Source: Streptomyces sp. NBC_01197
GTDB taxonomy: Bacteria > Actinomycetota > Actinomycetes > Streptomycetales > Streptomycetaceae
Length of the DNA stretch: 64,000 bases
Direction: 5' to 3'
Assembly (NCBI RefSeq): GCF_036010505.1
Contig: NZ_CP108569.1
Span: 3,359,001-3,423,000, forward strand
The stretch's first letter is position 1; each line of letters begins with the position of its first letter. The notes below the pieces were generated by a model that worked only from the letters and a program-made list of their open reading frames with translations, was not told the origin of the DNA and ran no database searches. Of the stretch, positions 16,677-64,000 are shown one piece after another. A program made the position numbers and the translations under genes.

Positions 16677-16953
16677 GGAGCGCCTTCTCAACCACGGATT
16701 GAAGCGCCGCAGCAACAGGCCCGCTGGTGACCACCTTGTAGAGCACCGCCGCGAAGGCGCACGCCGCGATGGTGCCCATCGCGTACTCGGACGTGGACAT
16801 CCCCACGTCCCTGCCGGCCCCGAACCTCAGCAGATGCCACCGGGCCCGCATCCACCTCCACGCTCCTGAATCACCCGGACCGCCGTGCTCCCCCGGCCCG
16901 CCCGCACCGCTCGACTTATTCGTCCCGGTCGCTAGATTCCGTTCGTTCACCAT
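16663..16953 (-). CDS. DUF4244 small pilin-like protein (Flp-type)
   Basis: 96 residues from ATG at 16953, behind GGGGGTTGAC. The C-terminal half reads GMSTSEYAMGTIAACAFAAVLYKV: Gly, a short spacer, Glu-Tyr and a hydrophobic helix, the arrangement of Flp/type IVb prepilins processed by a TadV-type peptidase. DUF4244 is the family found at this place in actinobacterial Tad loci. The first 50 residues are long and Gly/Pro-rich for a leader. It lies 216 bases after tadC and starts the pilin block. Confidence 0.82.
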   Translation of the reverse strand: MVNERNLATGTNKSSGAGGPGEHGGPGDSGAWRWMRARWHLLRFGAGRDVGMSTSEYAMGTIAACAFAAVLYKVVTSGPVAAALQSVVEKALHATF

Positions 16954-17169
16954 GTCAACCCCCGTGCTTTCCGATGCTGTTCGCGCGGCCGGCATTGGCT
17001 CACCCGGCTCGCACGCCTCTTTCGCGATTTGTGCCACTCGGACGATTCAGCCCATGGATCGATTCGGCTGAATCGCTTCATTCCAGTCATCCCGCTTGTT
17101 TGAGTTGATCGAGTGAACCGAGTTGATCGAGTTGTTCCAGCGACTGCCCCCTGTTCTCGGCTGAGTTCG

Positions 17170-17973
17170 TCAGCTGGCCTTCAGGAGGTGGCCCGCCAGG
17201 CTGATCACCACGGGCACCACCCCGACTGCCAGGAACGCGGGCAGGAAGCAGAGGCCAACCGGCCCGGTGATCAGAACGCCCGCCCGGCCTGCCCTGTCCT
17301 TGGCGGCTCTGGCCCGGCCCGCTCTGAGACCTGCCGCGAGCCGGGCAACCGAATCGGCAGCCGGGGCCCCGGTCGACGCGGCCCGCTCCAGGCAGCGGGC
17401 CAGGGCCGTAGCCCCCGGTATCGCGCCGAACCGCCCCCAGGCCTCGGCGGGTTCACTGCCGAGCCGCAGCTCCGCCGCCGCGCGGGCCAGGGCGTCACCC
17501 ACCGGTCCGCCCAGCGATTCCCCTACCGCCTCGGCCGCCTCACGGGGTCCTGCGCCGGCCGCGATACACGCCGCCAGGAGTTCGGAGGCGAGCGGCAGTT
17601 CATGTGCGGCGGACTTCGCCAGGGCCTCGTCGGCCCCGGACGACGAACGCCCTCGCTGCCAGCGCCGCACCCCGTACCCGGCCGCAAGCCCGAGCGCGCA
17701 TCCGGCCCACCCACCCACCAGGACGCAACCAGTGGCCACAGCGGCCAGCGGAGCGCCCCACCGGGCGGCCCACGCCCGGTACTCGGGGCGCCGAACCGCC
17801 CTCCCCGGTGCCGCGGCCAGCAGGGCGGCGGCCCGCTTGCGTGACAGCCGGTCGTGTCGTCGCCCGGTCCAGGCAAGGGCCAGCCGGGCTACTGCCGCCA
17901 CGGCGCACAGCACCGCCCCCAGCCTGTGGACAACCTCGCCCGTCATGACGCCACCTCCCGCGCCTCCGGTCAT
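17170..17973 (-). CDS. Type II secretion F-domain protein, TadC-like
   Basis: 267 residues from ATG at 17973 (ATGA overlap with the stop of tadB). Two hydrophobic segments near the N-terminus, a cytoplasmic T2SSF domain with ELLAACIAAGAGPREAAEAVG and the pair LITGPVGLCFLPAFLAVGV at the C-terminus. T2SSF proteins form the inner-membrane platform on which the pilin assembles. The paralogue TadB precedes it, as in other Tad loci. Confidence 0.88.
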   Translation of the reverse strand: MTGGAGGGVMTGEVVHRLGAVLCAVAAVARLALAWTGRRHDRLSRKRAAALLAAAPGRAVRRPEYRAWAARWGAPLAAVATGCVLVGGWAGCALGLAAGYGVRRWQRGRSSSGADEALAKSAAHELPLASELLAACIAAGAGPREAAEAVGESLGGPVGDALARAAAELRLGSEPAEAWGRFGAIPGATALARCLERAASTGAPAADSVARLAAGLRAGRARAAKDRAGRAGVLITGPVGLCFLPAFLAVGVVPVVISLAGHLLKAS

Positions 17974-50031: not shown

Positions 50032-50105
50032 CGGGGTGTAGCGCAGCTTGGCAGCGCGCTTCGTTCGGGACGAAGAGGTCGTGGGTTCAAATCCCGCCAC
50101 CCCGA
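50032..50105 (+). tRNA. tRNA-Pro (anticodon CGG)
   Basis: 74 nt fold into a full cloverleaf: acceptor CGGGGTG/CACCCCG, D-arm GCGC/GCGC, anticodon stem CTTCG/CGAAG around TTCGGGA (anticodon CGG), T-arm GTGGG/CCCGC with TTCAAAT. CCA is not encoded. It reads proline CCG codons. Its 3' half is the expected attachment core of pSAM2-type elements, and the integrase gene starts right after it. The gene is intact, so the element restores it upon insertion. Confidence 0.96.
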
Positions 50106-50121
50106 CAGCTAAGTAGCAGGT

Positions 50122-50182: not shown

Positions 50183-51349
50183 CTAGCGGTCCTGATCGCG
50201 CCTGAAGATACCGTCCATGGCAATGGCCCCGGTCTGGATGACGGGCCGGATCTGCTTCCGGTAGACCTCTTCGGTCACGGCCGTCCCGGAGTGGCCGACG
50301 AGGCGGGAGATCTCCTCCAGCGGAATGCCCCGGTCCGAGAGCAAGGACACGAAGCTGTGGCGGAGCTCGCGAGGCGTCCAGTCGTCGGCGTCGATCCCTT
50401 CGGCCTTCTTGAGCGCCTGTCGGAAGGCCCGCCGGACGTTGGTCGCGTCGAGAGGCTTACCCACGGCCGACGAGAAGACGAGTCCGTGTTCTTCCCAGCT
50501 GTCGTCAGCGGCGAGCCGCTCCCAGCCCTGCTCTTCGAACTGCTGCCAGAGGGCCTCGACGCAACGTGCCGGCAGTGCGAGCGTGCGCCGCGACTTCCGA
50601 GTCTTGGTGTCTCCGCCACGACGGACCGAGCGCCACACCGCGATGTGCGGAGGCTGCGGCGGATCGGAAAACGGCTGCCCCTTCAGGAACACGTGGTCCC
50701 AGGACAGAGCTCGCAGTTCCTCGGTACGGGCACCGGTCAGCAAGGCGACGACGATGTACGTGTGCATCGAAGTCCCCTCAGCGGCCTTCAGCACGGACTC
50801 GGCCTGGGCGAACGTGAGTGCCTTGGACGGACGACCCGCCTGCCCCTGCGGCACGGAGCACAGCTCGACGACGTTGCGCTTGACCTTGTCCCGGGCCATG
50901 GCTCGCTTGACCGAACGGTTCAGGCAGGAGTGGACGGCTTGAAGCGTGCGCGTGCTGAGGATCTTGGCCTTGACCGCTAACCAGCGGTCGACGTCCTCTG
51001 CGCTCAGATCGCGCAGCTTCCGGGCGCCGAGCGCAGGGATGACGTGCTTCTGGCTCAGATTGGTGCAGTTCTCGACTGTGCGCTGATCGCGGCCCGCCAG
51101 ACCGTAAGCAAGCCAGTCATTCACGGCGTCGGCGACGGTGTAGTTCGTGGGCGCGATGGCGAGACCGTCCTCAAAGTCCCGCAACACCTCCTTGAGCTTG
51201 TTCTTCGCCTCCGTCTTGGTCTTGCCACTCCCCCGCCGGACGATCCGCTTACCGCTCGGATCAAAGCCGAGGTTCGCCGTGGCGATCCAACGCTGTCTCT
51301 TCTCGTCCCAGTGCAGCCCACCGTCACCGCGGCTCCGACGCAGGGGCAT
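50183..51349 (-). CDS. int: Site-specific tyrosine recombinase (integrase)
   Basis: 388 residues from ATG at 51349. The N-terminal arm-binding and SAM-like domain (about 60-165) precedes the catalytic domain: first Arg in LLTGARTEELRALSW, Lys in TKTRKSRRTLAL, Arg330 in RELRHSFVSLL, His353 in LVGHSGT and nucleophile Tyr363 in EEVYRKQ. It integrates and excises the element at the adjacent tRNA-Pro. Its ATG shares one base with the xis stop (TGATG), so repSA-xis-int is one coupled unit. Confidence 0.95.
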   Translation of the reverse strand: MPLRRSRGDGGLHWDEKRQRWIATANLGFDPSGKRIVRRGSGKTKTEAKNKLKEVLRDFEDGLAIAPTNYTVADAVNDWLAYGLAGRDQRTVENCTNLSQKHVIPALGARKLRDLSAEDVDRWLAVKAKILSTRTLQAVHSCLNRSVKRAMARDKVKRNVVELCSVPQGQAGRPSKALTFAQAESVLKAAEGTSMHTYIVVALLTGARTEELRALSWDHVFLKGQPFSDPPQPPHIAVWRSVRRGGDTKTRKSRRTLALPARCVEALWQQFEEQGWERLAADDSWEEHGLVFSSAVGKPLDATNVRRAFRQALKKAEGIDADDWTPRELRHSFVSLLSDRGIPLEEISRLVGHSGTAVTEEVYRKQIRPVIQTGAIAMDGIFRRDQDR

Positions 51350-51537
51350 CAGGCGGCCTCTGCCATCTGGTTCTGGATGAAGTCGCGCACGGCGTCAGCA
51401 GGTACGCGGCGAGCGCCGTCGATCTTGATGGACGCAAGTCGGTGTGTGCGCATCAAGTCGTAGACCTTGGAGCGGCCGAGCTTGAGTCGCCCCATCACGT
51501 CGGTCACCGTCAACAGTTCAGGCGCGGTGGTGGTCAT
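51349..51537 (-). CDS. xis: Excisionase, MerR-like helix-turn-helix
   Basis: 62 residues from ATG at 51537, overlapping the repSA stop (ATGA). The sequence LLTVTDVMGRLKLGRSKVYD then LMRTHRLASIKIDGARRVP is the excisionase/MerR winged helix that binds near att and directs Int to excise. The size matches pSAM2 Xis. Confidence 0.92.
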   Translation of the reverse strand: MTTTAPELLTVTDVMGRLKLGRSKVYDLMRTHRLASIKIDGARRVPADAVRDFIQNQMAEAA

Positions 51538-52979
51538 GCGGCCCTGCCTTCCAGAGGGAGTTGATCGCGTAGGGCTTCGCGGGCTGTCTCGCGGTTGAGC
51601 TGGAGGTCGCGGGCGATGGTGGCGGCGAGGGCAGTTTCGCCGGGGCTGTGGCCGTGCCCCGCGTACTGCCAGTCGGCCAGGACGAGCACGGTGTCCGGTT
51701 GGCGGTCGTCTAGGCCGAGGGCCTGGCGCTCCTGGGCCGAGCGGAAGTCGGCGCGGGCTTGGCGGAGTTCGCCGAGGGTCGTGGAGTACCGGCGGGACTT
51801 GGAGGAGAAGTGGCCGCGGAAGCCGAGCATGTGCGCCCAGGCCCAGAGGCGGCGGTCCGGGTAGAGCGGATCGAGGGTCTTGCATGCGTTGATGAGACGG
51901 CGAGCATGGTCGGGTACGCCGTGGCGGTCCAGTTCGGAGAGTTCCCCGATGCGGCGGTCGAGGGTGCCGGTGTTCTCGGCGGCCTTGGTGGCGTACTTGG
52001 CGACGTAGGACGCCACGGCCTGCTCGGTGAGGTCGGAGCCGTCGCCAAAGGCGATGACGGGGCGGACATCGAGCTGTGCACCCCAGCGAAAGGTACGGGC
52101 TGACTGGTCATCGGCCGCGGGGACGGATACGGACGTGTAGTTGTGCTGGGAGGCGGCGTGGATCGCGTCGGTGAGGAGGTCGACGGTGGCCCAGGACGGG
52201 GGCGGGCTGTCTGGTCCGTCGGGGCCGTCGATGCGCATCACGGCGTGGAAGTGGATCGCTCCTCGCTTCTGGAATTCTGCGACCTTGCCGTACGAGAGCC
52301 GTGCCGATTCTTTGAGTTCGGCTTGGGTGAGTCCGGCGCGGGCGGCGATCTCGCGGCGGAGGCGGGTCGTGAAGCGCATCCAGAGGTCGCCTGCGTGGTT
52401 GTTGAAGAGGACTGATGCGGCGTAGTCGTACGTCTCGGGGTTGAGCGCGGTGCCGAGTTCCGGTGCGTTCTCGGGGTGCCGGCTGCCGCAGCGGCAGGTG
52501 CCACGGTCGGGCCGGTTGTGGACCGGGCCGAAGGACGGAGCGGTGAGGGTGGCGAAGACGCGGGGGTGGTCGCGGACGGTGGAGGGGATGTCGCGACGGT
52601 CGTCTCCGGCCAGGCCCGCGCGGATGAGGTGGTAGGTGTCTCCGGCGTACGTCCAGGCGCAGGACGGGCAGCGGGAGGCCCGGCGGTTGCCGCAGGCGAG
52701 GCGGAGGCGTCCGCCGGGCTCGGTACCGGTGGAGTACTCGTGCAGGGTCTCGCCGGTGATCTTGTCCTTGGTGCGGGTCCAGCCGGTCAGGTGGATCGGG
52801 TCGGAGCAGCCGCCGGTGCGGCGGATCTGGTCTTCCCAGCGATCGAAGTCGGGGGCCGAGGCCACCCTCAGCAGGTCGTTGAGGGTGATCCGGTCGCGCA
52901 GTGCGTCAGGCACGGACGCCTTTCCGGCGACGGTCCGGACGGCTCGTTCCGGCGCCGGTGGGCGGGTGCGGTCGGTCAT
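51534..52979 (-). CDS. repSA: Rolling-circle replication initiator, RepSA-like
   Basis: 481 residues from ATG at 52979 behind GGAAGGAAG. A Cys-rich N-terminal region (CGNRRASRCPSCAWTYAGD and GTCRCGSRHP) is followed by the HUH-type motifs: FATLTAPSFGPVH, GAIHFHAVMRID (metal-binding histidines) and ASYVAKYATKA with the nucleophilic tyrosine(s). It nicks the double-strand origin, which in pSAM2-type elements lies in or near the rep gene, and starts replication of the excised form needed for transfer. Confidence 0.92.
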   Translation of the reverse strand: MTDRTRPPAPERAVRTVAGKASVPDALRDRITLNDLLRVASAPDFDRWEDQIRRTGGCSDPIHLTGWTRTKDKITGETLHEYSTGTEPGGRLRLACGNRRASRCPSCAWTYAGDTYHLIRAGLAGDDRRDIPSTVRDHPRVFATLTAPSFGPVHNRPDRGTCRCGSRHPENAPELGTALNPETYDYAASVLFNNHAGDLWMRFTTRLRREIAARAGLTQAELKESARLSYGKVAEFQKRGAIHFHAVMRIDGPDGPDSPPPSWATVDLLTDAIHAASQHNYTSVSVPAADDQSARTFRWGAQLDVRPVIAFGDGSDLTEQAVASYVAKYATKAAENTGTLDRRIGELSELDRHGVPDHARRLINACKTLDPLYPDRRLWAWAHMLGFRGHFSSKSRRYSTTLGELRQARADFRSAQERQALGLDDRQPDTVLVLADWQYAGHGHSPGETALAATIARDLQLNRETAREALRDQLPLEGRAA

Positions 52980-54514: not shown

Positions 54515-55870
54515 TCAGGCGGTGGCTGTCGCGGCTTTGGAGAGCGACACGGAGGCCGGGGCCAGTGGGGCGACGTCGGGCCGGAAGGCCGCGAGCGCGG
54601 GCAGGGCCGGGGTGCGGTCGGCGTGCCGGTTGCAGATGTTCACGGCCTGGCGCAGTGAGGTGTGCGGCGCACGGATACGAGTCCATCCGCCGGTGGAGTC
54701 GCCGGATACGGCGATGCCGGGAACGTCGGTGGGGATCTGGATCGCGGCGATGACCGCGTCCGGGGCGATGTCGCCGAAGGCCATGTTGGCGCTGGACTCG
54801 TCGTTGACGCGGTGAGCGGTCCGGCCGGTGAGCTGGGCCCTGAGCATCGTGATGCCCTTGCCGAGTTCCGAGCCGAAGCGCTGTCCGCAGATCTCCAGGT
54901 AGATCCCTGCGGCACGGCCGAGTTGGGCGAGACGGACCAGGTCAGTGATGATCCGGTCCCGACGCTTCTCCTGGTCCTTGGTGGCGTAGAGAGCGAGCTC
55001 AGCGACCTCGTCGACCAGGACCACGACTGGGGTGGGGCGCATGTCCTCGGGCAGGTCCCAGATGTCAGCGGCTATCTCGGCATCGGGGAGGTCGACCGTG
55101 ATGCGCTGGGCGGTACGGATCAGTTGGTAGACATCCTCCATGTGTCCCACCAGGGCATCGAGCAGTGCGAGCGCGGTGTCCGGGTTGTCGGCGAGAGCGG
55201 AGAACCGGCGGGCGAGCGGGAAGAGCTCAACGCCTTGCTTGCAGTCGATACCGACCAGGGCGACGTCATGAGCCGCGAGGCCGGCGACCAGGTTGCGCTG
55301 GTAGACCGACTTCCCGGACTCGGTGGCACCCAGGGTCAGCCCGTGCGGAACGGCCCGGTAGTCGCGGTAGTGCACGGCACCGTCCTCGCAGAGAGCTACG
55401 GGGATACGCATCGGTGCCTGGTCGGTCTTGGCGGGCATCTGCACCCGCTTGAGAACGTCGTAGCCGGTCATGCGCAACTCGACCACCCCGGAACGGACTT
55501 CCCGGGACGTGACGCCGTACATCCCGAAGGAGTGCCGAAGCCGGTCGGTGGCCGCCGAGACGTCGAAAGCGTCCTGGCCGGGACGGAGCTTGAGGCGGAT
55601 CACTAACCCGGTGCGAGTCGGACGCAGCCGCAGGATGAGCGGGGCACGGAACTCAGGGACGGGCCGGTGGGCGAGACGGGCGAGCGAGAGACGCCAGCGC
55701 GAGGGCGGGACGGTGAGGCCGCAGGCGTCCATGACCGAGGTGTAGCGGATCGCGACCCGCAGCGCGGCGAAGGTGACCCCGAAGGCCAGCCAGTACCAGG
55801 CGGGGCGCCGCCACCGCAGGATCACTGCGGTGACGACGACCAGCAGCAGCGTGACCAGGAAGGTGGTCAC
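54515..55870 (-). CDS. traSA: TraSA/TraB-type FtsK-like DNA translocase
   Basis: 451 residues from GTG at 55870, two bases after the pra stop, with AAGGCGG upstream. Two N-terminal membrane helices, then the FtsK/HerA motor: Walker A TLGATESGKSVYQRN and Walker B PVVVLVDEVAEL. It pumps double-stranded element DNA between mycelial cells, the single-protein transfer mode of actinomycetes. A C-terminal winged-helix domain that would read the clt sequence is not obvious in the last 60 residues. Confidence 0.92.
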   Translation of the reverse strand: MTTFLVTLLLVVVTAVILRWRRPAWYWLAFGVTFAALRVAIRYTSVMDACGLTVPPSRWRLSLARLAHRPVPEFRAPLILRLRPTRTGLVIRLKLRPGQDAFDVSAATDRLRHSFGMYGVTSREVRSGVVELRMTGYDVLKRVQMPAKTDQAPMRIPVALCEDGAVHYRDYRAVPHGLTLGATESGKSVYQRNLVAGLAAHDVALVGIDCKQGVELFPLARRFSALADNPDTALALLDALVGHMEDVYQLIRTAQRITVDLPDAEIAADIWDLPEDMRPTPVVVLVDEVAELALYATKDQEKRRDRIITDLVRLAQLGRAAGIYLEICGQRFGSELGKGITMLRAQLTGRTAHRVNDESSANMAFGDIAPDAVIAAIQIPTDVPGIAVSGDSTGGWTRIRAPHTSLRQAVNICNRHADRTPALPALAAFRPDVAPLAPASVSLSKAATATA

Positions 55871-55872
55871 GG

Positions 55873-56229
55873 TCAGGCCGCCTTGGAATTCTCGCCACCA
55901 GCGGCGAGGGACGTGACGGCAACCGCGCGGAAGGCGATGCCGTGCCGCTTCTGCCCGTTGAAGTCGTTCTCCCACGGGCGGGCGATCAGACCGGTGACGG
56001 CGACGGGCGTACCCATCATCAGCTCGCCGGAGATGCCCGGCTCGGGGACCGTCACCGAAAGGATCTCCACCTCATCGTTGGCCGCGAACATCACGTCCAC
56101 GGTCATGAGCTTCGCGCCGCTCTCGATGTCCATGGCGATCTCGCCGGTACGGCGGTCCTTGACCTTGATCGCCGGGGGCTTGGCGACCATCACGGAAGCG
56201 CTGGAGGTGTCGACGGGGATCGTACGCAC
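55873..56229 (-). CDS. pra: Pra-like activator of replication, integration and excision
   Basis: 118 residues from GTG at 56229 with AGGAGTGATC upstream. No helix-turn-helix is obvious; the chain is beta-rich (LMTVDVMFAANDEVEILSVT). Annotation databases call this family plasmid replication, integration and excision activator, as Pra of pSAM2 (recalled). Its place beside a KorSA-like repressor and two operator-like palindromes supports this. traSA follows at once, so one promoter may drive both. Confidence 0.75.
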   Translation of the reverse strand: MRTIPVDTSSASVMVAKPPAIKVKDRRTGEIAMDIESGAKLMTVDVMFAANDEVEILSVTVPEPGISGELMMGTPVAVTGLIARPWENDFNGQKRHGIAFRAVAVTSLAAGGENSKAA

Positions 56230-56368: not shown

Positions 56369-57148
56369 TCAGTCGGTCGCGGGGATTCGGTAGCTGAAAA
56401 CGAACTGGTCAGCAGCCATGAGGGTGTCGCAGACCTCCACCACCCGGCCTTCGGTGGTCTTGGCCTCACGGATCAGATGAACCACCGACGCACCGGGGCT
56501 CAGGGCGAGTTCGGAGGCCTCGGCCTTGGTGGCGAGCCGGGCTTGCAGGGTCTCGACGAACTCGGCGAACTCGTGCCCGTGCTCTTCTAGCCTGGCGTAG
56601 ATCCCTCCCCCGCCGGGGTTCTCGGCGAACAGCTCGGGGATGTCCTTCACGGCATCCCACGGCAGGTACGACGTAGCGGTTTCGACGGGCGTGCCGTTAC
56701 GGAAGTACAGGCGCCGTCGCGCGAGCACCTGAGTGCCGGCCGCAAGGTCCAGCCGCTCGGCAATGTCCTCCGGGGCCGCCATCGGACCGATGTAGAGGAC
56801 GCTGACGCTCGGGGTCGCCCCCGACTGCTCGGACTCAGCCAGGTACGCAGCCTTTCCGCCCTGCCGGTGCGAGCGCCGGAAGCGGTCGGAGGAGCGGTGC
56901 CGTACCGGGGGCCGCGCCTTGACCATGGAGCCCTTGCCCTGACGGGTCTCGACAAGGTCACTCGCGCGCACCTCCACCATGGCCTTGCGGATCGTGCCGC
57001 CCGAAACTCCGTAGCGCTCGACCAGCTCCGACTCGCTGGGCACCATGTTGCCGGGCTTGAGGATCCCGGCCCGGATCTGCTCAACGATCTCGTCGGCGAT
57101 CTGCACGTACCGAGGTACGGCTTTCCCACCTCCTGTTGCTGTTCCCAT
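56369..57148 (-). CDS. korSA: GntR-family repressor, KorSA-like
   Basis: 259 residues from ATG at 57148 behind AGGAGGAAG. N-terminal GntR winged helix: YVQIADEIVEQIRAGILKPG then VPSESELVERYGVSGGTIRKAM. A C-terminal UTRA ligand-binding domain follows (about 100-250). In pSAM2 KorSA represses pra and so holds the element in the chromosome. Here the gene sits between operators at pra and at its own 5' end, so it probably represses itself as well. Confidence 0.88.
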   Translation of the reverse strand: MGTATGGGKAVPRYVQIADEIVEQIRAGILKPGNMVPSESELVERYGVSGGTIRKAMVEVRASDLVETRQGKGSMVKARPPVRHRSSDRFRRSHRQGGKAAYLAESEQSGATPSVSVLYIGPMAAPEDIAERLDLAAGTQVLARRRLYFRNGTPVETATSYLPWDAVKDIPELFAENPGGGGIYARLEEHGHEFAEFVETLQARLATKAEASELALSPGASVVHLIREAKTTEGRVVEVCDTLMAADQFVFSYRIPATD

Positions 57149-57165
57149 AGTCCTTCTCTTCCTCC

Positions 57166-57171
57166 TATGCT
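57166..57171 (+). promoter_or_regulatory. -10 element of the pif promoter
   Basis: TATGCT ends eight bases before the ATG at 57179; there is no ribosome site, so a leaderless transcript is likely. Confidence 0.45.
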
Positions 57172-57184
57172 CCTGTACATGAGT
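57169..57184. promoter_or_regulatory. KorSA operator candidate 3 (korSA/pif)
   Basis: GCTCCTGTACATGAGT shares 15 of 16 bases with candidate 2. It covers the end of the -10 box and the start codon of the Pif-like gene and lies just upstream of the korSA ribosome site, so one bound repressor could act on both directions. Confidence 0.65.
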
Positions 57185-57631
57185 AACAGCGCCCAGGAAG
57201 GCACGTCAACGCCGCTCCACTCCGTGTCCGTGGCCGGAGTGGTGGTACGCGAGGACGGACGACTCCTGGCGATCCGCCGCGCCGACAATGGCGCCTGGGA
57301 GCTCCCGGGCGGCGTGCTCGAACTCAATGAGACTCCCGAGGCAGGCGTCCAGCGGGAAGTCTGGGAAGAGACGGGCATACACGTAGAGGTGGACGAGCTC
57401 ACCGGGGTCTACAAGAACACAACGCGAGGCATCGTGGCGCTGGTCTTCCGATGCAAGCCGGCAGGCGGCACCGAGCGAACATCCAGCGAATCGACCGCGG
57501 TTGACTGGCTCACGCCCGACGAAGTCTCCGAGCGGATGGGCGAGGTGTACGCGGTCCGGCTCCTGGATGCCTTGGACGGGGCGGGGCCACATGTGCGGAG
57601 CCACGACGGCCGACGGCTCCTCCACCAGTAG
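57179..57631 (+). CDS. pif: Pif-like Nudix hydrolase
   Basis: 150 residues from ATG at 57179 (ATG 57167 in the same frame is an alternative). Nudix box GGVLELNETPEAGVQREVWEETGI, with VSVAGVVVREDGRLLAIRR before. In pSAM2 the Nudix protein Pif gives the carrier immunity against incoming copies of the same element. Size, place beside korSA and operator support the same role here; the Nudix substrate is unknown. Confidence 0.82.
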   Translation: MSNSAQEGTSTPLHSVSVAGVVVREDGRLLAIRRADNGAWELPGGVLELNETPEAGVQREVWEETGIHVEVDELTGVYKNTTRGIVALVFRCKPAGGTERTSSESTAVDWLTPDEVSERMGEVYAVRLLDALDGAGPHVRSHDGRRLLHQ

Positions 57632-58509: not shown

Positions 58510-60375
58510 CTAGAGCGTGTTGGCTCGTTGGACGCAGTGCGGTCGGAGCGGACAGTCAGTGCAGTAGGGCGCACTCTCGCGACAGGCAGTCATGCCGATC
58601 CGGCGTATGCCAGCCATTCGCAATGGTGCGTTCTCACCCGCTCCTATCAACCTCGCCAGGTCCACTCGGCCATCGCTAAGCCGGTTGGACCGGTCGGTAT
58701 TGCTGCCATTGACACGCGCAGCTACGCGAAGCTGGCCCTGTCCAACGAGGAGGACATCCTCTTCCAAAAGAAGTCGGTACAAAGAGGCTTCGGCCGCCTT
58801 GAATCCAACTCTATTCGGAATCTCAAGCGGCTCCGCCCAAACGACTGACTTGCCAACGAGTGGCCGCAGCCGCTCGAAGGAAGCAACAAGCCTGTCCGTG
58901 GGAGCGAGTTTGATGAGGTCCGCAAAGATCTTCCTCCTCAGGGTCTGCTCACCCTTAACGAGATTCATCATGGTGACCTGTGCAGAGCTGATCAGTTTCG
59001 AGGAGGACAGGGCAGCTGCGACCGCAGCTTGGACGGGCCCCATCTCATCTCCTGGGAAATGGAACCAAGCATCGGTGGCACGCTGCTTTTCGGTCCAGAC
59101 TGTCAGGTCGTCGCGTAGGTCCAGCCAATGAGCCCTCAACGGAGCTTTCGACGCGGCCACCCCCGGTGCAGGAAGCAGGGCCTCTGCTGCTGCCTGTCCG
59201 AGCATGGGCGGAACCGCATTTCCGATCTGCCGGAAGGCGTCACTGCGCACGCCGGCAAAGCGGAACCAGTCAGGGAAGGTTTGGATACGGGCGGCCTCTC
59301 TAACTGAGAGAGTCCGGTGCTGCTCCGGGTGGATGTACCAGTACCCGTCCTTGGCGATGTGGGCAGTGATGGTCCGGCTGAGGTCGTCCCAGCCAAGCCT
59401 CTTGTACTTGTCCTTGAAGTGTTTTGTGTCGTAGCGCTGGAGGCGTTCAGGAATGTCCCGGTAAAGGGTGCGGGAGGTCATGCCCTCAAAGATTTCCCGG
59501 TCGTCTGGCCGGACGTGCCGGGTCATGTGGTCATGCACGATCCCCTGAGGCGCCTGCTCGCGCATCTGCTGCGCGAAGGTGGCTAGGCTGCCCGGCTCGT
59601 TGTACGTGAGAGCACGGCCGCCCGTTTCTCCCTCTCCGATAAGTGGCAGGTCTCCGATGGCGTCGCGGAGCGAAGTCCGCTTACTCACCGGCTCAGGCCA
59701 AGAGATCCGGTCGATATCGTTGCGAGCTAGGAGAATAAGACGCTTGCGGTGTTGGGGCACTCCGTATGTCCAGGCGTTAACGAGGCGAACCTGGGTTACG
59801 TAGCCCTCCTGTTGCAACCTCTCCTCAATCGTGCGCGTCACGAAGAAGTCGTCTCCGAGTCCCATATCAGGGACGTTCTCCATCAGGACAGCCCGTGGCC
59901 TGAGCGCGAGAACTATGTCGAGGTAGGCGACCCATAGTTCCTTGCGGCGGTCGTAAGGGTCCCTGCCGTGCTTTTGCACGAGGCTACGGATCTTGCTGCG
60001 ACCGGCTCGGCTGAACGGCTGGCACGGAGGACCCCCAGCGACGAGGTCGATACCAGCCGGTTGGAGCAACTTGACCAGCCGCTCCCGGTGCTCGGGATTG
60101 CCCAGGTCCAAGTGGAGGCTCAGGCCAGGCAAGTTGGCAGCGTGGGTCTCAAGGGCGCGCTCGTCAGCATCGACGGCCGCCGCCACCTGCCAGCCGGCCT
60201 GCTTGATGCCGAGGCTGAGGCCGCCCGCGCCGGAGAAGAGGTCAACGGCCAGAGGCCGGTGGTCGCCGTGCTCCGCAAGCCAAGTCGTGAAGGTCTCCGG
60301 CGTACAGCTGTTCTCGTGCGGATCGAGCTTGAGATAGTCGCTCCGCACGAGAGGTACACCGTAGTGACCCCCCAC
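58510..60375 (-). CDS. Cytosine-5 DNA methyltransferase with C-terminal 4Fe-4S-type motif
   Basis: 621 residues from GTG at 60375, with GGAGG seven bases before; the longer frame to 60573 lacks a site. Motif I VDLFSGAGGLSLG (about 44-56), motif IV GGPPCQPFS with catalytic Cys118, motif VI MENVPD, motif VIII QHRKRLIL, and near the end of the methylase IQTFPDWF and QIGNAVPP. About 170 extra residues follow. They end in Cys598, 605, 608 and 614, spaced Cx6Cx2Cx5C with TDCPLRPHC, the spacing of the iron-sulfur loop of endonuclease III. It methylates cytosine in an unknown target, presumably protecting own DNA from the linked nuclease. Confidence 0.9.
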   Translation of the reverse strand: MGGHYGVPLVRSDYLKLDPHENSCTPETFTTWLAEHGDHRPLAVDLFSGAGGLSLGIKQAGWQVAAAVDADERALETHAANLPGLSLHLDLGNPEHRERLVKLLQPAGIDLVAGGPPCQPFSRAGRSKIRSLVQKHGRDPYDRRKELWVAYLDIVLALRPRAVLMENVPDMGLGDDFFVTRTIEERLQQEGYVTQVRLVNAWTYGVPQHRKRLILLARNDIDRISWPEPVSKRTSLRDAIGDLPLIGEGETGGRALTYNEPGSLATFAQQMREQAPQGIVHDHMTRHVRPDDREIFEGMTSRTLYRDIPERLQRYDTKHFKDKYKRLGWDDLSRTITAHIAKDGYWYIHPEQHRTLSVREAARIQTFPDWFRFAGVRSDAFRQIGNAVPPMLGQAAAEALLPAPGVAASKAPLRAHWLDLRDDLTVWTEKQRATDAWFHFPGDEMGPVQAAVAAALSSSKLISSAQVTMMNLVKGEQTLRRKIFADLIKLAPTDRLVASFERLRPLVGKSVVWAEPLEIPNRVGFKAAEASLYRLLLEEDVLLVGQGQLRVAARVNGSNTDRSNRLSDGRVDLARLIGAGENAPLRMAGIRRIGMTACRESAPYCTDCPLRPHCVQRANTL

Positions 60376-60527
60376 TGTCCAACCTCCGTTTGATAACAAC
60401 AACGAGCACCAAGAGACCATACATCCACCTGGCCAGGCGGAATCTCCCAGGTTTCTGACCTTGGATTTTCTATCGTCCGTCCAAGGGCGGGGATGATGCT
60501 CTGCTCGGCTCTTCTGCCGGCGGCACG

Positions 60528-62255
60528 TCAGGTGCGGGAAGCCCAGTCCACCGCGCGGACTGTCTCCCAGCATTTAGGCTTCTTGCACCACTCGGTGACG
60601 TTTCCCGAGCCGGGGGCAGCCACCAGGAGTGGCCGCACGACGTCGACTGCCAGCTCGGGCACAAGGTCGTCGATCCATCGCGGGAGGGCCTGGGTCCGCC
60701 AGATATTGTCCAGATCGACCTGGGTGCCGTACCTGTCGACCAAGAGTGCCACTGCGTAGGCCGTGGTCGGTCCCAAGTAGCCGCCCAGTCTCATCTTCTG
60801 GATCGTCCTGCGCGTGTGCTCAAAGAGAATGCGCTTGGCTACCACTTGCTTGAAATGGCCAGCATCAGGAGAGCCGTCGAAGAAGTTGACGACGTCCGTC
60901 GTCCAAGCGTGGAAGCACTTCTCCGCGCCCAGACACACGTCGTGCGGGCGCCCAAGGTAGGTGAGCTCATACTTGGCCACATCCGTCTTGCCGAACTTCT
61001 TGGCCAACGGATGCTCACGCGTAAACCTTGCCTTCTCGGCCTGTTTCTCCAAGTCGCTCAGGTCCACCTGGTACTGCCCGCGGACACGCTCGTAATACCA
61101 GCGAGTCTGACGTGTGCTGCCCTCCGGGGCTGGTGCCCATATCGACCGAGACAGTGCCTGCAGCCTGCGGTGGTAGGGGCTGTTAGCTTGGAGGTCGGCT
61201 TCCTTGATCGCATTCTGAGAGTTGGCGAAGCGCGAGATATTCGGGACGAGCTCGTCCAGCATCTCCTCCCGGATGACGGTGATTTTCGCGGGCACCCTGA
61301 CCTTAGAGAGATCGACGCCCTTCTGCATCATGTGGTGCAGGGAAGCTGTGGTCTGTCCGCCATTGACGATCTGTAGATCGACCAGCCGGGTAAGTACGAC
61401 TGCGCCGTCCGGCGTTACCGTCGTGTCCGCCGTGGTGACGGTTGCCGAAACTCCGTTGTTGTACGCGAGGAACCGTCCGGGCTCCTGACGCACCGTCTCG
61501 CTAATGCCCTTGTTCACCTTGCCACGAGCCTGCAGATACGCGCGGACGTTGCGCTGGAGCAGGCGGCCACCGTGCTCCTTATAGAGCTCAGCTAGGAGCT
61601 GGCCTGGCAGAACGGTCAGCAAACAGTCGAAGTCCGCGTCACCCGGCGCACTCAGACATGGGAGAGGCTGGTCGAGCTCGATTACCGTCTCTTCTTCACG
61701 TCGCCCCGACGAGGCCAGTCGGTGCAGACGGGCGATATCCCACAGCTCGTAGGTACACCGCAGCCCCTCGGTCTCTCCGGGGGGCATCGACTCCACGGTG
61801 AGCCGGGCGTCGGTAAACAGGAAGATACGCACCCGGTTGATGCCCGGCCAAGCCTCGTAAATGCTCTGGGCCATCGCGTAGGCTTGTTCGGTCTCGTCCA
61901 TCTCCAGATGGAGACCTTTACGGCACTTCTCGACAAAGATCTGGGCCCGGCGCAGGGCACGCTGGACATCGGCCTTGTGGATGGTCTGGGCTTTCCAGCC
62001 ATGCTCCGCGGTGACGATGTCCAAGACCGATCCGCCGTCGCTCAGTGCATATCCGTACACCTCGGCAGTGCTCCGGCCGACCTGCTTACGGCAGTAGCAC
62101 GACTCGACGTCCTCCAAGACGCCGTCCTCCACGAGATACTCGCGGAAGACGTCGACGAATGCACCGTTGAACCTGGTACCCACAGGGGAGTCGGTGCGCG
62201 CTCGCGCGTCCTCGTATAGATACTCTGCGAACTCCGTGAGCTCGTTCTCGCTCAA
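60528..62255 (-). CDS. AIPR family protein
   Basis: 575 residues from TTG at 62255, overlapping the preceding stop (TTGA), with GAGGGG upstream. The diagnostic segment is GRFLAYNNGVSATV followed by LVDLQIVNGGQTTASLHHMM, the AIPR (abortive phage resistance) core. Family members sit in R-M-like and abortive-infection loci; biochemical activity is not settled. It is translationally coupled to the nuclease. The 152-bp gap to the methyltransferase may hold a second promoter. Confidence 0.88.
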   Translation of the reverse strand: MSENELTEFAEYLYEDARARTDSPVGTRFNGAFVDVFREYLVEDGVLEDVESCYCRKQVGRSTAEVYGYALSDGGSVLDIVTAEHGWKAQTIHKADVQRALRRAQIFVEKCRKGLHLEMDETEQAYAMAQSIYEAWPGINRVRIFLFTDARLTVESMPPGETEGLRCTYELWDIARLHRLASSGRREEETVIELDQPLPCLSAPGDADFDCLLTVLPGQLLAELYKEHGGRLLQRNVRAYLQARGKVNKGISETVRQEPGRFLAYNNGVSATVTTADTTVTPDGAVVLTRLVDLQIVNGGQTTASLHHMMQKGVDLSKVRVPAKITVIREEMLDELVPNISRFANSQNAIKEADLQANSPYHRRLQALSRSIWAPAPEGSTRQTRWYYERVRGQYQVDLSDLEKQAEKARFTREHPLAKKFGKTDVAKYELTYLGRPHDVCLGAEKCFHAWTTDVVNFFDGSPDAGHFKQVVAKRILFEHTRRTIQKMRLGGYLGPTTAYAVALLVDRYGTQVDLDNIWRTQALPRWIDDLVPELAVDVVRPLLVAAPGSGNVTEWCKKPKCWETVRAVDWASRT

Positions 62256-63259
62256 CCGTTCCCCTCCCCAGGGTGGTGCACACCAGCGCCAAGCACGGCC
62301 AAGACCTCGGCCTCCCCGACCAAGGCCTGCCCGCAGGCACCTAGGTCCAAATCGTACGACACGCTGGATATGCCCTTGGGCAGCAGGTGAGGAACCAGCC
62401 GCGGGAACTCCTCGGTGACCCGGAAACAGCGGCGGGTGCCCAACTGCCAGCGTTCGCCCTCATAGTGACTGCGGTGCACGTCGAACCACCCGGCCTCGAC
62501 AAGACAGTTCTCCAATACCGCTCGCTGTCCAGCAATGCCAGGGTGGCCCCGCAGCTCGTCGACGAGATCGCACAGACTCGACCCTGCCTGATCGCTTTGC
62601 AGTTGCTGATGGACGAGCGCCAGGTAGTCGAGCGAACCGTCGTTCAGCTGCTCTTCTCCATGGATGCGGCACCGCAGGGGGTTGCGGCGGTCGCCGGAAG
62701 CCGTCTTGACCTCCAGGCCCCACGCCCCCCATGCGAAGTCCCGCACGCCGCTCGCCGGCCCCTGCCATCTCGATACGGCGTCCCGGCCACAGGCGGGGAG
62801 CACAAGGTCCCGCAGCACCAACAACTCACCGAAGAGACCGATCCGGGCCTCGGGCTTAAGTACCCCGCCCAGCCCCCTGCCCAGCACCCGCTGCCAGGAG
62901 GCGATCCTGCGCACCACTGCCGCAGCAGGGGCGACCGACGTGCGCTCTAGGTGATCTACGAGGTCGGCCAGCAAGGTGCAGAAGATGTGAGTGTCCGTGG
63001 TCGGCTGGGCCACGACTTCCACGTGACCCTCCCGAAAGAAGCAGGTCAGCCCGTTGGCCATGACGAGCTGCCGGTTCCCGAGCTGCTCGCCGCTTGCGAT
63101 CACCAAGGCTCGTTCGCGCCCGGGGAACCGCACTTCGAGGAAGACGTCGAGAGGGTGATCGGGCAACAGGCGGCGCCGCGAACTGCCGTGGGAGGCGGCA
63201 CGCACTCGCTCGATAGCCGCGAAGGACTCGGCCACCTCCTGAGGAGTAATCCGGGTCAC
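62252..63259 (-). CDS. PD-(D/E)XK motif nuclease-like protein (DUF4420-like)
   Basis: 335 residues from GTG at 63259, overlapping the Z1 stop (GTGA). The catalytic pattern is readable: Glu145 in GLFGELLVL, Asp174 in VRDFAWGAW, then Glu183 and Lys185 in GLEVKTAS. It has the look of the PD-(D/E)XK motif protein that accompanies Z1 and AIPR genes. As the nuclease of the set it would cut unmodified DNA, by inference. Confidence 0.85.
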   Translation of the reverse strand: MTRITPQEVAESFAAIERVRAASHGSSRRRLLPDHPLDVFLEVRFPGRERALVIASGEQLGNRQLVMANGLTCFFREGHVEVVAQPTTDTHIFCTLLADLVDHLERTSVAPAAAVVRRIASWQRVLGRGLGGVLKPEARIGLFGELLVLRDLVLPACGRDAVSRWQGPASGVRDFAWGAWGLEVKTASGDRRNPLRCRIHGEEQLNDGSLDYLALVHQQLQSDQAGSSLCDLVDELRGHPGIAGQRAVLENCLVEAGWFDVHRSHYEGERWQLGTRRCFRVTEEFPRLVPHLLPKGISSVSYDLDLGACGQALVGEAEVLAVLGAGVHHPGEGNG

Positions 63260-64000
63260 TCCTCGCCCTCCTCAGGGTCCTCGCCTGCTCCGGAAAGCAT
63301 CCTCTGTAGCTCACGCAGATAGATGTCGTTAACTCGGTAGCGCTTCGGGCGTGCAGTGGTGGAGACGGGCAAGGACAGTGCGTAGCCGATCAGCGGGAGT
63401 CCCTCAGGCAGGACGCCGTCTACTTGGTCTCCTGGGTCCACTGGATAGACGAGCAGAAGGCCCTCGCCCGGATCCCGACGACTGCGAATAGCATGGCCGC
63501 TAGCCCGTGAGGGCGTCCTACTGGCCACCCCCGCGCCCCCCGCAACGCTCGTCGGCTGTCGGTAGGCATCCGCGGGCAGGCCGATGGCTTCATGAACCGG
63601 GCTCACCAGCACACCCACCTGGTAGTCGGTGCCAGCCCGGATGGTCTCCTGTAGGCCAGCTAGCTTGCGCTTCACCATCCGCAGTTCTCTGCCGTCGAGC
63701 GTGAAGCTGCGCGGCGCATTGCCCGTCGTCACCGCAACGGTCCACCGGGTTAGCTCACCAAGGGTGTTCTGCCGGGAGATGTAGTCGACGAGAGTCTGTG
63801 GATTGGCTTGCAGGGTGCGGGGCGAAGCGGCAAACCCGTCGAGGAAGCGCAGCACGGTCGATGCCGGCACGCCCTGACGGAAAAAGCCCTGCGCCCCGTG
63901 CCGTAGCGGCTGAGATACCCCATCGCAGCCCTCCACTGCGGTCACAAGCCGCTCCAGGCGCGCATAGTTGTCCCGCATGGCCTGCTCGTTTGTGCGCATA
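63256..64000 (-). CDS. Z1-domain protein, C-terminal part (5' end outside window)
   Basis: The frame is open to the right edge; at least 248 codons including the stop at 63256. The segment GLLLVYPVDPGDQ, then LPEGLPLIGYALSLP and RYRVNDIYLRELQ resembles the C-terminal end of Z1-domain proteins, putative ATP-dependent partners in R-M-like systems. The Z1 core itself lies beyond the window, so the call rests on the tail and on the neighbours. The methionine at 63999 is internal, not the start. Confidence 0.65.
   Translation of the reverse strand, partial: MRTNEQAMRDNYARLERLVTAVEGCDGVSQPLRHGAQGFFRQGVPASTVLRFLDGFAASPRTLQANPQTLVDYISRQNTLGELTRWTVAVTTGNAPRSFTLDGRELRMVKRKLAGLQETIRAGTDYQVGVLVSPVHEAIGLPADAYRQPTSVAGGAGVASRTPSRASGHAIRSRRDPGEGLLLVYPVDPGDQVDGVLPEGLPLIGYALSLPVSTTARPKRYRVNDIYLRELQRMLSGAGEDPEEGEE

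Follow-up and report, generated by a model that had tools for sequence, protein, structure and literature searches.

Related systems and the composition of the operon

Among described systems, the MZA anti-phage system (mzaABCDE) and the general MORC/paraMORC restriction-modification class (Iyer, Abhiman and Aravind 2008, PMC2292703), for which the accessible text proposes looping of DNA between recognition and cleavage sites, resemble a gene set that we analysed in Streptomyces sp. NBC_01197. The window, the whole 64,000-nucleotide stretch analysed (contig NZ_CP108569.1, positions 3,359,001 to 3,423,000), carries this defence operon at its right-hand end, within an integrative element at tRNA-Pro. 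We consider it very likely that the five-gene set on this mobile element marks host DNA and destroys unmarked incoming DNA. The system is real, mobile and apparently intact, and its kind has already been described. The operon genes in the window are:

58510..60420, minus strand: C5-cytosine DNA methyltransferase (Dcm), 636 residues counted from Met52 (Pfam DNA_methylase 2e-54)
58513..59181, minus strand: Dcm C-terminal domain with a predicted HhH-GPD/MutY-like fold, CX6CX2CX5C present and the canonical catalytic Asp absent
60528..62255, minus strand: AIPR family protein, MzaE-like (Pfam AIPR 1e-81, AIPR_N 7.8e-43; MzaE 402 bits)
62252..63259, minus strand: DUF4420 PD-(D/E)XK nuclease, MzaD-like (Pfam 4.4e-58; MzaD 129 bits)
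63256..64000, minus strand: operon gene running to the window end

The profile matches bear out the sequence-only reading, which had seen a C5 methyltransferase, a PD-(D/E)XK nuclease and an AIPR protein here. It had also placed the operon in the ATPase-associated class of Iyer, Abhiman and Aravind, and indeed a GHKL ATPase adjoins a superfamily 2 (SF2)-type helicase, the nuclease and the DNA methylase. The catalytic motifs of Dcm (PPCQPFS, ENVP, QHRKR, GNAV) are all intact; its reading frame is open from 60573 and the real start is possibly further downstream. The EVK of the DUF4420 nuclease lies at residue 183. Comparison of gene neighbourhoods, as that reading had suggested, found the core order, including AIPR, retained in 73 of 80 loci.

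Homologues of MzaB, MzaC, MzaD and MzaE occur here in the same order as in MZA, and all four score under the curated equivalog cut-offs (346 against 850 bits, 685 against 1500, 129 against 420 and 402 against 1050, respectively). MZA has MzaA; here a C5 methyltransferase stands in its stead. The MzaA sigma factor profile (NF041931) has 13 matches elsewhere in the genome and none at the locus, and an MzaA-like profile built in this analysis has no match within the 49-77 kb operon region. The MORC/paraMORC class, as far as its accessible text goes, shares with this locus mobility and the combination of GHKL ATPase, SF2 helicase, nuclease and DNA methylase; being a general class, it is matched at class level only, the GHKL protein here being recognised by its GHKL domain and the MzaB profile. 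The putative defence system that Miller et al. 2022 (PMC9523054) list as 'Type II' was compared by its description, the accessible part of which makes no mention of an Fe-S/MutY-like methyltransferase domain or of carriage on an integrative element, both found here. In CglI and NgoAVII the nuclease is, according to the accessible text, PLD-B3 (PMC4267653), whereas here it is a DUF4420 PD-(D/E)XK protein, accompanied by GHKL and AIPR. The operon holds no PLD-B3 restriction subunit, its remaining proteins being DUF4420, AIPR and GHKL, and the DrmA plus DrmB pair that identifies DISARM was not found.

An Fe-S/MutY-like domain fused to the methyltransferase

The predicted overall fold of the Dcm C-terminal domain is that of the HhH-GPD superfamily (MutY, endonuclease III, thymine-DNA glycosylase), here fused to a methyltransferase, and thymine-DNA glycosylase (1kea) is among its structural matches. 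The four Cys of a [4Fe-4S]-type loop (C-X6-C-X2-C-X5-C) are present in 44 of 44 domain rows, from which an iron-sulfur cluster is predicted. Unlike the named enzymes, the domain is without the canonical catalytic Asp in all 44 rows, the aligned column holding G, S, T, N or Q in an alignment of this region based on sequence. The helix-hairpin-helix glycines (LPGxG) are likewise missing when seven domain rows are compared with MutY and Nth. This additional domain, which resembles an iron-sulfur enzyme of DNA repair in shape, could reveal how systems of this kind discriminate self from foreign DNA.

Vsr is present in 69 of 100 loci. We considered the domain as a Vsr substitute and rejected this, because Vsr co-occurs in 18 of the 26 loci that bear the domain; it is thus not a simple Vsr replacement. 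No Vsr lies in the window's operon region (49-77 kb), and the one Vsr elsewhere in the genome is about 1.5 Mb away.

As far as our searches reach, the novelty lies in the carriage of the system by an integrative element at tRNA-Pro, in the actinobacterial Fe-S/MutY-like domain borne by its methyltransferase, and in the DrmB hybrids that also have this domain. A literature search, with most subscription journals outside its reach, found no mechanism paper on MZA-type systems and no report of a Dcm fusion to a MutY-like domain or of a DrmB-AIPR hybrid.

The integrative element

The sequence-only reading had taken the system to be mobile, and the set does lie inside a tRNA-Pro integrative element with an integrase, RepSA and att repeats:

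50032..50106, plus strand: tRNA-Pro(CGG), target for element integration (ARAGORN)
50064..50110, plus strand: attL, 47-bp repeat of the tRNA 3' end
50183..51349, minus strand: tyrosine integrase of the element (Pfam Phage_integrase 6.5e-19)
51534..52979, minus strand: RepSA, replication initiator of pSAM2 type (Pfam RepSA 2.4e-147)
54515..55975, minus strand: FtsK/SpoIIIE-like protein (Pfam FtsK_SpoIIIE 2.3e-45), a TraSA-like transfer protein
56369..57148, minus strand: GntR/UTRA regulator of the element
72816-72862 in extended coordinates, beyond the window (L002:15816-15862 = G000:C1:3431816-3431862): attR, identical 47-bp copy

The tyrosine integrase, RepSA, the FtsK-like transfer protein and the tRNA att repeats, perfect at 47/47 between attL and attR, identify a pSAM2-like actinomycete integrative and conjugative element (AICE), 22.8 kb in size. 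An open reading frame (ORF) for a NUDIX hydrolase (56867-57631) lies on the strand opposite to the GntR regulator gene, and the frames as listed overlap.

Right of attR and just outside the element, L002:16219-16809 and 16766-17734 hold an ORF that resembles T5orf172/GIY-YIG as judged by eye and an HNH_2 nuclease gene (profile match). A few other genomes have DNA like this right flank beside their tRNA-Pro. In a search of 61 genomes, many had copies of the tRNA 3' end within tens of kb of tRNA-Pro, and related systems lie at tRNA-Pro in G006 and G051. The tRNA-Pro gene looks like an integration hotspot across the genus.

Alternative explanations

One alternative is abortive infection: on recognising foreign or replicating phage DNA, the DNA-sensing ATPases would trigger cell killing by AIPR (and DUF4420), and Dcm would prevent auto-activation in the host. 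The AIPR family takes its name from abortive infection, the protein here also matches PADLOC AbiU (3.1e-22) and its gene belongs to the conserved core order; we regard this explanation as possible, if rather unlikely. The methyltransferase/nuclease set might instead stabilise the element after loss, like selfish restriction-modification, or bar rivals at tRNA-Pro, with phage defence secondary. This is doubtful given that S. indiaensis holds the same five genes in different flanks and that G031 and G035, among the 61 genomes, have the system away from tRNA-Pro, from which we conclude that the system is not bound to one element type.

A DNA repair module, where the MORC/MutL-like ATPase, the MutY-like domain and, elsewhere, Vsr would fix T:G mismatches arising from 5-methylcytosine deamination rather than act in restriction, appears very unlikely. 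The glycosylase-like fold and the frequency of Vsr are consistent with it, but the missing catalytic Asp, the joint occurrence of Vsr and the domain, and a core that includes nuclease-family and helicase-like proteins argue against it.

Locus variants

Half of the 80 loci L011-L090 (40) encode a long, MzaA-like protein that includes a sigma-70 module; in 30 of them it sits 5' of the core, and the one at L088:5863-8235 has ankyrin repeats. In the system loci L154, L155, L163, L173 and L191 a second GHKL-family gene lies directly past Dcm.
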